Shown one piece after another: positions 1,981 through 5,268 of a stretch of 64,000 bases of DNA. The number at the start of each line of letters is the position of its first letter. The stretch's first letter is position 1. A model generated the notes under the pieces. The model ran no database searches. It was not told where the DNA came from and worked only from the letters and a program-made list of their open reading frames with translations. Origin of the DNA: an uncultured bacterium (GTDB lineage Bacteria > Sysuimicrobiota > Sysuimicrobiia > Sysuimicrobiales > Sysuimicrobiaceae); the NCBI GenBank assembly GCA_938028835.1, contig CALIMJ010000008.1, positions 124,001 to 188,000 on the forward strand, read 5' to 3'. The position numbers and the translations under genes are program-made.

Positions 1981-2295
1981 ATGCCAACGGTTTACCTGCC
2001 CGCCCCTCTGCGCCGACTGACCGGGGGCGCGTCCCGGGTCGAGGTTCCCCCGGGCACGGTGGCCGACGTGTTGCGCGCCCTGGACGAGCGGTTCCCCGGC
2101 ATGAGGGCTCAGTTGTGCGACGAGGATGGTTCCGTGCGCGCGTTCATCAACGTGTTCGTGAACGGCTCCGAGATCCGAACCCTGCAGGGGCAGCAGACCC
2201 CCGTGGGAGAGGAGGATGAGGTGTCCATCATTCCCGCCATGGCAGGCGGGAGCCCCCGGAGGTGCCTTTGTCGCAGAGCGGGGATCGGTCGCTAG
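1981..2295 (+). CDS. MoaD/ThiS/CysO-like ubiquitin-fold sulfur carrier with a 14-aa tail after the GG motif
   Basis: beta-grasp pattern ending VSIIPAMAGG followed by SPRRCLCRRAGIGR; adjacent CysM and JAMM genes. Confidence 0.85.
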   Translation: MPTVYLPAPLRRLTGGASRVEVPPGTVADVLRALDERFPGMRAQLCDEDGSVRAFINVFVNGSEIRTLQGQQTPVGEEDEVSIIPAMAGGSPRRCLCRRAGIGR

Positions 2296-2317
2296 CCCCG
2301 GCGTGGCGCTCCTAAGG

Positions 2318-2343
2318 CCCCGGACCCGCCGGGGGGTCCGGGG
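2318..2343 (+). promoter_or_regulatory. hairpin between the CysO-like gene and the ParB-like gene, next to the downstream SD
   Basis: CCCCGGACC...GGTCCGGGG perfect 9-bp arms followed by GGAGGA and the GTG start. Confidence 0.5.
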
Positions 2344-2355
2344 AGGAGGAACGTT

Positions 2356-3216
2356 GTGAGTCCCGGGGCGCCGCGGACACGGGGCAGCGCGCCGGCCACC
2401 GGGCGGGTGGCGCTTCCGGATCTGCGCTTCTTCCCCACCTCTCAGGTCCTCCTGCACGAGGAGTACGACCCCGAACGGGTCGAGCGGCTGGTGCGCCGGA
2501 TCGAGGAGGAGGCGGTGCTGCGGAACCCGCCCCTGGTGGCGGAGCTGGGCGACGGCCGCGTGGTGGTGCTGGACGGCGCCAACCGGGTCACCGCGTTGGA
2601 GCAGCTGGGAGCGCCGCACGTGCTGGTGCAGGTGGTCCCCTACGACGAGCCGTCGGTGGTCCTCGACCGGTGGCACCATCTGCTGGTGGCGCTGCCGGAG
2701 GGTTTCCCGGACCGGTTAGGGGAGGGGCTGCCCGTGGAGCCGACCGATCCGGAGGAGGCCTCCCAGCGCCTGGGCCGCGGGGAGCTCGTGGCGTACGTAC
2801 GTGTGGGGAGCTTCGCCCGGGGGCTCCCGCGAGCCCCCGGCCTCGTGGAGGACGCGGACCGGCTGCGGCGGCTGGTGGCGGCCTACCGGGGCCGCGCGGT
2901 CTACCACCGCGTGGAGTCCGAGGACTTCGACGATCTGACCACGCGGTACGGCGGCGCGCAGGCCCTGGTGGCCTTCGGGCGGTTCCGGAAGGAGGAGATC
3001 CTGGAGCTTGCGCGCAACTCCGCGAAGCTGCCTGCGGGGGTCACGCGGCACATCGTCCCCGGCCGGGCCCTGCGGGTAAACCTTCCCGTGGAGGTGGTCC
3101 TCCGGCACGGGTCGGTGGAGGAGAAGAACGCGTGGTTGCGGGCGTGGATCCAGCAACGGCTGCGGGAGGGGCGGGTCCGTGCCTACCTGGAGCCCACGAT
3201 CCTCTTCGACGAGTGA
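2356..3216 (+). CDS. ParB/Srx-fold protein, candidate free serine kinase (SerK/SbnI-like)
   Basis: N-terminal ParB-like domain (LLHEEYDPERVERLVRRIEEEAVLRNPPLVAELGDGRVVVLDGANRVTALEQLG) in a cysteine-synthase operon; no HTH evident. Confidence 0.65.
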   Translation: MSPGAPRTRGSAPATGRVALPDLRFFPTSQVLLHEEYDPERVERLVRRIEEEAVLRNPPLVAELGDGRVVVLDGANRVTALEQLGAPHVLVQVVPYDEPSVVLDRWHHLLVALPEGFPDRLGEGLPVEPTDPEEASQRLGRGELVAYVRVGSFARGLPRAPGLVEDADRLRRLVAAYRGRAVYHRVESEDFDDLTTRYGGAQALVAFGRFRKEEILELARNSAKLPAGVTRHIVPGRALRVNLPVEVVLRHGSVEEKNAWLRAWIQQRLREGRVRAYLEPTILFDE

Positions 3217-4178
3217 CGGAGCGAAGGAGCGTGCGGAGCGTGGCCTACCGGTTCGAGACGAAGATTCCGAGGATCGGAGAGGACCTGCTGCAGCGGATCG
3301 GCAACACGCCCCTGTTGCGCCTCCGCCGGGTGACCCGAGGGCTGCCGGAGGGCGTGGAGGTGTGCGTGAAGGCGGAGTGGTTCAACCCCGGGGGCTCGGT
3401 GAAGGATCGGCCCGTCCTGCGGATGATCGAGGACGCGGAGCGCGCGGGGCTGCTGACCCCCGACAGGGTGCTGCTGGACTCCACCTCGGGAAACGCGGGC
3501 ATCGCGTACGCCATGATTGGAGCCGCCAAGGGCTACCGGGTGAAGCTGGTGATGCCCGCCAACGCCAGCGAGGAGCGGAAGCGCATGATCCGGGCGTACG
3601 GGGCGGAGCTGGTGTTCAGCGACCCCCTGGAGGGCTCGGACGGGGCCATCCTGCTGGCCCGTCGGATCCACGAGGAGGACCCTGACCGGTACTTCAAGCC
3701 CGACCAGTACAACAACCCCTCCAACTGGAAGGCCCACTACGACACCACGGGGCCGGAGATCCTCGCGCAGACCGAGGGCCGGATCACCCACTTCGTAGGC
3801 ACCCTGGGTACCACGGGCACCGTGGTGGGCGTGGGGCGACGCTTGCGGGAAGCGAACCCCGAGGTGCAGATCGTGGCGGTGGAGCCAGACGATCCGCTGC
3901 ACGGGATCGAAGGGTTGAAGCACATCGCCAGCTCCATCCGGCCGGGGATCTACGACCCCTCGGTCCACCACCGGAAGATCGGGGTCAGCACGGAGGCGGC
4001 GTACGCCATGGCGCGGCGGCTGGCGCGGGAGGAGGGGATGTTCGTGGGAGCTTCCACTGGCGCCGCGGTGTGGGCAGCCCTGCAGGTGGCCCGAGACCTG
4101 CAGGAGGGGCTGGTGGTGGCGCTGGCGCCCGACGGGGGAGACCGGTATCTGAGCACCGCCCTGTGGCGGGACGTATAG
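3213..4178 (+). CDS. cysM: PLP-dependent cysteine synthase (CysM-type)
   Basis: IGNTPLLRLRRV, NPGGSVKDRPVLRMI, STSGNAGIAYAM, GTLGTTGTVVGVGRRLRE; start could be any of the GTGs at 3213-3240. Confidence 0.9.
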   Translation: MTERRSVRSVAYRFETKIPRIGEDLLQRIGNTPLLRLRRVTRGLPEGVEVCVKAEWFNPGGSVKDRPVLRMIEDAERAGLLTPDRVLLDSTSGNAGIAYAMIGAAKGYRVKLVMPANASEERKRMIRAYGAELVFSDPLEGSDGAILLARRIHEEDPDRYFKPDQYNNPSNWKAHYDTTGPEILAQTEGRITHFVGTLGTTGTVVGVGRRLREANPEVQIVAVEPDDPLHGIEGLKHIASSIRPGIYDPSVHHRKIGVSTEAAYAMARRLAREEGMFVGASTGAAVWAALQVARDLQEGLVVALAPDGGDRYLSTALWRDV

Positions 4179-4196
4179 GCGGCCCAGCAGCGCGCG

Positions 4197-4658
4197 GTGT
4201 GGTATTTTGGTGACGTGGCGGACCGGGGAGCTGACCCGCGGACCCAGGCGTCTGAGGCGGAACGGTTGCGGCTGAGTCGGGTTCACCTGGAGGCCATGGT
4301 GGCGCATGCCCGGGCGGAAGCGCCCAACGAGTGCTGCGGTGTCCTGGCGGGGCGGGACGGGAGGGTGGAACGCGTGCGGCCCGTGGCCAACGCGGACCGC
4401 AGTCCGTACACGTACCGCATGGACCCGCATGAGCTGCTGCGGGCGTACCGGGAGGCGGACGCGGAGGGGCTGGAGGTGCTCGGCTACTACCACTCGCACC
4501 CGGCGACCCCCGCGGTGCCCTCCCGCACCGACGTGGCGCGGGCGGTGGACCCGTTTGCGGTGTACGTGATCGTGTCTTTGGCCAGCGAGCCGCCGGAGGT
4601 TCGGGCCTACCGGATTCTGGACGGCCGCTACCGGGAGCTGGAGCTGAGCGTGGGGTGA
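4197..4658 (+). CDS. mec: JAMM/MPN+ metalloprotease (Mec-like)
   Basis: E...GYYHSHPATPAVPSRTD = EXnHSHP-S-D JAMM motif; NECCGVLAG. Confidence 0.9.
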   Translation: MWYFGDVADRGADPRTQASEAERLRLSRVHLEAMVAHARAEAPNECCGVLAGRDGRVERVRPVANADRSPYTYRMDPHELLRAYREADAEGLEVLGYYHSHPATPAVPSRTDVARAVDPFAVYVIVSLASEPPEVRAYRILDGRYRELELSVG

Positions 4659-5116
4659 GGTTCTCAACCCGAGCCGAGTACGGGCTGCGCGCCCTCATCG
4701 ACCTGGCCCTGTTCGGCCACGAGGGGCCGGTGCAGACCCACGACATCGGCCGTCGCCAGGGCCTGCCGGAGCCGTATCTGAACCAGCTGCTGGCGCAGCT
4801 GCGCCGGGCGGGTTTGGTGGTGAGCAAGCGCGGCCCCCACGGGGGCCACCGGCTGGCCCGGCCCCCGGAAACGATCCGGCTCCACGAGGTGTTCCTCGTC
4901 CTGGAGGGTACCACGTCCCCGTGGGAGTGCGTGGATCGCGACGATCCTGACTGCACGTACGCCCACGGTTGCGGGCTCCGGCCCCTGTGGCTGCGTCTGA
5001 AGGAGGCCACCGACGAGGTCCTTCGCAACACCACCCTGGCAGATCTCCTGCCCGTCTTCGCCGTACCCCCTCGCACCTCCCCGGTTCACAGACAGCGGGC
5101 CCGCCCCGTGCTATAA
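4655..5116 (+). CDS. Rrf2-family transcriptional regulator with Cys cluster
   Basis: [18 protein letters not shown]...; [21 protein letters not shown] overlap with the mec stop. Confidence 0.9.
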
Positions 5117-5268
5117 TCGGGCTGGAAAAGCGGCGTCGGTTCGGAACACGATCGGGAACAGGGTTTTCCTGGAAACGCGGGTCGTGCCCGACCGAGTGGG
5201 CTACGGGGGACAGAGCCCCAGGGTGCGTGGTCCAGGAGGGCCCTGTTCCTGCTTTGTGTGGACGTTCC

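Follow-up and report, generated by a model that had tools for sequence, protein, structure and literature searches.

A candidate cysteine-biosynthesis operon with a predicted ParB-fold serine kinase in an uncultured bacterium of the order Sysuimicrobiales

We analysed a window of 64,000 nucleotides from an uncultured bacterium of the family Sysuimicrobiaceae (assembly GCA_938028835.1, contig CALIMJ010000008.1, positions 124,001 to 188,000), in which five plus-strand open reading frames at 1981-5116 follow one another with short gaps or overlaps. They encode a CysO-like sulfur carrier, a ParB-fold protein, a CysM-type cysteine synthase, a JAMM protease and an Rrf2-family regulator. The reading frames are present as listed in a preliminary description of this DNA, which had called them five tightly packed genes, and family scans back their identities. 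Judging from sequence comparison and structural modeling, the cluster is probably an operon for cysteine biosynthesis, in which a predicted ParB-fold serine kinase would provide O-phosphoserine for CysM and CysO would provide the sulfur, alongside the JAMM protease and Rrf2. The genes for the ParB-fold protein, CysM, the JAMM protease and Rrf2 lie no more than 23 bp apart, and 60 bp separate CysO from the ParB-fold gene.

The ParB-fold protein (2356..3216, + strand, 286 amino acids) is, by sequence profiles and by its model, a relative of the SerK/SbnI type that stands outside both equivalog families, and it is a predicted free L-serine kinase. A Pfam scan gave no match, and the only NCBIfam matches were SbnI (79.5 bits, E 2.5e-22) and SerK (37.3 bits, E 1.6e-9). 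Against solved structures, phmmer returned SbnI (5ujd, E 9.6e-16) and SerK (5x0b, E 9.4e-9), whereas Noc came no closer than E 0.1. The AlphaFold model has a mean pLDDT (predicted local distance difference test) of 91.2 and was matched by Foldseek to SbnI with E-values of 2.7e-19 (5uje) to 1.5e-17 at template modeling (TM) scores of 0.67-0.72, and to SerK with an E-value of 3e-16 and a TM score of 0.69. The preliminary description had named two checks on this protein, a structure prediction against SerK and SbnI and the catalytic glutamate in an HEE region, and both came out in its favor. The SbnI and SerK matches span ~230-265 columns (TM 0.65-0.72), which is nearly the whole protein, and Glu35 (codon 2458..2460, + strand) falls on Glu30 of SerK (5x0b), the residue mutated in 5x0e, 5x0g, 5x0j and 5x0k. 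Glu35 also aligns with Glu20 of SbnI (6nr6 numbering) in the phmmer alignment; the residue roles in SbnI are presumed from the alignment. In an alignment of 22 sequences from relatives within the order, H34, E35, D38, D73, G74, R77, W106, H108 and R231 are invariant. Outside the order Glu35, Asp73, Arg77, Trp106 and Arg231 are retained too, Glu35 in eight more distant sequences.

The gene order, counted from hand-checked loci, is widely kept within the order. A SerK homolog occurs in 40 of 43 genomes, with one further weak fragment; of the 39 genomes with both sides assembled, 35 have CysM as the gene immediately after SerK. In 33 genomes CysO comes before SerK, either directly or with only a gene for a CBS-domain cystathionine beta-synthase (CBS) between them. 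The complete arrangement CysO-(CBS)-SerK-CysM-JAMM-Rrf2 recurs in ~30 genomes from five families, so that the survey of the five-gene order proposed earlier turned out positive; one genome (G007) has a gap of 3.5 kb before JAMM. As the order is kept in ~30 genomes whose SerK proteins are mostly only 40-55% identical, it is not due to chance. The CBS gene sits between CysO and SerK in 14 genomes, mostly with a gene for cystathionine gamma-lyase or gamma-synthase (CGL/CGS) and lipB upstream. Neither CBS nor a second CysK/CysM enzyme was found in the window genome. In one genome (G014) SerK, CysO and CysK/CysM enzymes are all undetected together, which we count in favor of the proposed pathway.

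The metabolic context fits a route through O-phosphoserine. CysE, the serine acetyltransferase, was above its curated cut-off in none of the 29 genomes tested, compared with 8 of 14 control genomes, and the weak matches presumably represent other hexapeptide-repeat proteins. No cysteine synthase of the CysK/CysM family other than CysM (3240..4178, + strand, 312 amino acids) was found in the window genome, where the next-best match scores 60.8 bits. CysM is above the cut-off of TIGR01136 (CysM/CysKM) and reaches 391.6 bits with TIGR01138, for which the cut-off is 394.2 bits. Its start is most likely the GTG at 3240 rather than the upstream alternative at 3213, because relatives begin with MAYRF. 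Lys227 (codon 3918..3920, + strand) aligns with Arg220 of Mycobacterium tuberculosis CysM, checked against the sequence of 3dwg, a residue that we take to be the reported contact to the phosphate of O-phosphoserine. Of 18 cluster CysMs, 17 have Lys and one has Arg at this position, which is a gap in CBS and in the enzymes of genus g7. The fold with its glutamate, the lack of a detectable CysE, this basic residue and the gene order thus favor the earlier reading of serine being converted to O-phosphoserine for CysM.

CysO (1981..2295, + strand, 104 amino acids) belongs to the beta-grasp ThiS/MoaD/SAMP1 family (Pfam ThiS 54 bits; NCBIfam SAMP1 65.6 bits, cut-off 60) and matches M. tuberculosis CysO (3dwg_C) with a phmmer E-value of 4e-11. 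Its Gly-Gly is not terminal: 14 more residues, SPRRCLCRRAGIGR, follow the PAMAGG motif (tail at 2251..2292, + strand), and they are not conserved among relatives. PAMAGG is present in every CysO with an assembled end and is followed by tails of 0-25 residues that share no common sequence, with only two of some 30 being tail-less. A frameshift artefact is ruled out by this spread of tail lengths over some 30 genomes behind an invariant motif. In five genomes of four genera (G013, G016, G022, G026 and G028; loci L042, L130, L039, L129 and L132), CysO is fused in frame to CBS with the invariant PAMAGG ahead of the junction, two of the fusions being essentially linker-free; this distribution also makes an assembly artefact unlikely. 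CysO has no stop codon in G016 and G028, and free CysO can therefore arise there only through cleavage. The JAMM/Prok-JAB metalloprotease (Mec-like; 4197..4658, + strand) scores 107 bits with Prok-JAB, is nearest to 2kks among solved structures (E 1.8e-26) and carries the ligand motif E, HxH, S and D in NEC and HSHPATPAVPSRTD. Three genomes of genus g12 (G016, G028 and G037; loci L042, L130 and L174) have CysM fused in frame to JAMM.

Thus, CysO probably needs processing of its tail or CBS fusion by the JAMM protease to free the Gly-Gly terminus, a step on which the preliminary description was silent. JAMM proteases that cut extended or fused carriers are known from the HcyS/HcyD/MetY system of Wolinella (HcyD) and the QbsE/QbsD system of Pseudomonas (QbsD). 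In Deinococcus, DRJAMM cuts the carrier from a MoaD-MoaE fusion (PMC8832034). The protease of the cluster would likewise free the Gly end of a carrier that is extended or fused; the products of these systems, in contrast, are homocysteine, quinolobactin and molybdopterin, and none of them is known to involve a CysO-CBS fusion. From the CysO tails and fusions together with these proteases, we infer that JAMM both matures CysO and releases cysteine. A sulfite-reductase-like protein of another genome (L192:2788-4710, G003), so called from our own reading, carries a C-terminal CysO-like domain that ends in PALAGGAC; its gene belongs to what is probably an operon for sulfur assimilation, and a fusion of this kind was not found in the window genome. 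It resembles a fusion reported in PMC1779556.

Taken together, the pathway would start with phosphorylation of free L-serine by the ParB-fold protein, and CysM would turn the resulting O-phosphoserine into PLP (pyridoxal phosphate)-bound aminoacrylate. On the carrier side, the JAMM protease would begin by removing the tail of CysO or cutting the CysO-CBS fusion, exposing Gly-Gly, and an E1 of the MoeZ type with a rhodanese domain would load CysO with thiocarboxylate. By analogy with the mycobacterial pathway, sulfur from CysO would then be added on CysM to give CysO-Cys, from which JAMM would later free cysteine, with Rrf2 and its three conserved cysteines tuning expression to sulfur or iron-sulfur (Fe-S) status. 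The candidate E1 of the window genome (ThiF and Rhodanese domains, 394 amino acids) is encoded on contig C33, unlinked to the cluster, so the pathway is not self-contained, contrary to the earlier proposal. The genome also encodes two NifS-kind cysteine desulfurases. What further qualifies the earlier picture of one complete unit is the need for CysO processing, a possible alternative source of O-phosphoserine (see below) and the presence of CBS and CGL/CGS in many clusters.

Several observations weigh against this pathway. The ParB-fold protein is far under both equivalog cut-offs (79.5 vs 350 bits for SbnI, 37.3 vs 380 bits for SerK), so it forms a separate clade whose substrate specificity could differ. 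Its dN/dS (nonsynonymous to synonymous substitution ratio) of ~0.36 against close relatives is the highest of the five genes, its neighbors showing 0.01-0.18; judged from these sequences the gene is under constraint, weaker than that on its neighbors. The basic residue of CysM is weak evidence, as E. coli CysM likewise has an Arg at the Arg220 position, and the cluster CysM ends ~11-15 residues sooner than M. tuberculosis CysM, whose C-terminal segment it lacks. Genus g7 lacks CysO and the cluster CysM, yet keeps SerK, JAMM and Rrf2, and JAMM must therefore have another task there. Finally, the window genome encodes SerA (655 bits, over the cut-off) beside a class-V aminotransferase, and O-phosphoserine could therefore come from 3-phosphoglycerate without SerK.

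Some of these points bear on an alternative in which CysM is an ordinary sulfide-dependent enzyme, CysO and JAMM act in another thiocarboxylate pathway and the genes are grouped merely as sulfur genes. CysM lies indeed near enzymes of the O-acetylserine type (259 bits with 1ve1 vs 211 with M. tuberculosis CysM), and the g7 genomes keep SerK without CysO and have another CysK-like enzyme. However, no CysE for making O-acetylserine was detected, CysM is fused to JAMM in the three genomes of g12, and CysO adjoins SerK-CysM in the 33 genomes described above, and we consider this alternative unlikely. CysE was not detected in g7 either, so the g7 pattern connects SerK with cysteine synthesis as a whole and not just with CysO. 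Two g7 loci (L189 and L181) hold a second copy that is apparently decaying: it has CGL and CBS, its CysO is shortened or absent, and its SerK is broken or truncated.

It is also improbable, in our judgment even a little more so, that SerK is redundant or regulatory, with SerA and the aminotransferase beside it providing O-phosphoserine while the ParB-fold protein senses serine, O-phosphoserine or a nucleotide. In favor of this, SerB (phosphoserine phosphatase) was over its cut-off in none of 17 genomes (the window genome and 16 others of the SerK survey), so that SerA flux could stop at O-phosphoserine, and NCBIfam labels SbnI a bifunctional transcriptional regulator/synthase. Against it, the active-site residues of SerK are invariant, Rrf2 is already a dedicated regulator, and homologs elsewhere are paired with TrpB2, which also uses O-phosphoserine (see below). 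Moreover, no helix-turn-helix (HTH) domain was found after the CTPase fold in the ParB-fold protein, the C-terminal part of which matches SbnI and SerK. Although the window genome has SerA, no SerB above the cut-off accounts for the final step of serine synthesis. The missing SerB raised the idea of SerK running backwards in its place, which we think unlikely on thermodynamic grounds.

That the protein is a DNA-binding, CTP (cytidine triphosphate)-dependent clamp of the ParB type is highly improbable: besides the ParB fold core and weak Noc matches, only a literal GxxRxxA (GANRVTA, residues 74-80, within DGANRVTA) speaks for it, and we rejected this identity because the matches to Noc, ParB and sulfiredoxin are mostly confined to the ~80-residue core, with TM scores of 0.20-0.25, compared with the near full-length SbnI and SerK matches, and because Pfam and HTH matches are missing. 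The preliminary description had named an HTH domain and GxxRxxA as marks that would speak for a DNA-binding ParB, and only the second is present. The motif sits in a DG-xx-R loop common to SerK (DGHHR) and SbnI (DGVHR), and therefore alone does not indicate a DNA-binding ParB.

The proposed cysteine pathway combines features of several known systems. In Mycobacterium, CysM uses O-phosphoserine and thiocarboxylated CysO, and Mec cleaves the CysO-Cys adduct. There, too, carrier, cysteine synthase and JAMM protease are encoded together and an E1 with rhodanese is in the genome; the window operon differs by its SerK-type kinase and Rrf2 genes, by the tail or CBS fusion of CysO, by the unlinked E1 and by the shorter CysM. 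Operons of carrier, E1, JAB protease and cysteine synthase were described in a 2006 survey (Iyer 2006, PMC1779556; rows 4c and 4d), the text of which does not contain the words ParB, Rrf2, CysM or cystathionine. Thermococcus SerK is a free serine kinase that supplies O-phosphoserine to CysK, and clear-cut bacterial homologs were not found in the 2016 study (PMC5120207). It shares with the window protein the fold, the catalytic Glu and the link to cysteine synthesis without CysE; the window protein is ~18% identical in the structural alignment, has a longer C-terminus, is bacterial and is coupled to a carrier-protein system. SbnI of Staphylococcus is a serine kinase for staphyloferrin B, the O-phosphoserine being used by SbnA (PMC12414870). 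It is the nearest solved structure and likewise makes O-phosphoserine from serine for a PLP enzyme, but it serves a siderophore pathway, is ~25% identical, and the window protein is under the SbnI equivalog cut-off. In a 2025 survey of the ParB fold, SerK and SbnI figure as sporadic occurrences, and one SerK-like protein is reported to have bound CTP. The five-gene arrangement is not described in the literature that we searched, which was mostly open-access papers.

SerK homologs are also found in other phyla. In one of these, 17 of 82 genomes have a homolog, and the next downstream gene is TrpB-like in 13 of the 17 (TIGR01415/PRK12391; the four that were scanned pass the cut-off); the pair of one genus lies within an aromatic amino acid operon. 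A genome of a third phylum (G048) has the same pair, which brings SerK directly upstream of TrpB2 to 14 genomes in two phyla beyond that of the window (L122, L050, L214-L217, L219-L222, L224, L225, L227 and L228). TrpB2 enzymes are O-phosphoserine-dependent tryptophan synthases according to Busch 2014 as cited in PMC11917138, and their adjacency supports SerK as a supply module for O-phosphoserine. Like CysM, TrpB2 would thus be a PLP enzyme of O-phosphoserine-dependent beta-replacement next to SerK; its product is tryptophan, and it is not linked to SerK in the window. This connects the SerK family with four PLP enzymes for which O-phosphoserine is a known or predicted substrate, namely SbnA, CysK, CysM and TrpB2. 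Four SerK homologs have no adjoining PLP enzyme (L121, L218, L223 and L226), their neighbors being an alcohol dehydrogenase-type gene in G366 and unannotated genes in family f273. In G366, which is from another phylum, a cluster of CysM, JAMM and CysO fused to MoeZ (L190:2963-6983) occurs, and the SerK gene lies at another place, unlinked to it.

For a broader view we see about even chances. The bacterial clade of ParB-fold serine kinases may be a module that supplies O-phosphoserine to different PLP beta-replacement enzymes, the pairing being visible in the gene order: in the order of the window the partner would be CysM, with a JAMM-matured CysO, and the product cysteine, and in two other phyla the partner would be TrpB2 and the product tryptophan. 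The carrier would be made as a precursor, sometimes fused to CBS like a ubiquitin precursor, and JAMM would both mature it and release the product. The bacterial free serine kinase known since 2016 is a siderophore gene, and a route known piecemeal from archaea, staphylococci and mycobacteria appears to extend to a bacterial group without detectable CysE. If so, O-phosphoserine would be a dedicated currency of activated serine in such bacteria, the cluster would offer a complete and testable route from serine to cysteine with a protein-bound sulfur donor, and the CysO tails and CysO-CBS fusions would parallel, in bacteria, the processing of ubiquitin precursors.

The last gene of the cluster encodes the IscR/CymR-like Rrf2 regulator (4655..5116, + strand). 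It scores 131 bits with the Rrf2 profile, and 96.7 and 81 bits with CymR and IscR, each under the cut-off. The three cysteines of its C-x7-C-x5-C motif are conserved in 35 of 35 relatives, which would fit an Fe-S cluster sensor better than a regulator of the CymR type. Searching the region against Rfam gave no match. A promoter-like site at 5089-5117 lies at the end of Rrf2, ahead of a gene for an ECF (extracytoplasmic function) sigma factor, and the sigma genes past Rrf2 may therefore form a separate unit.

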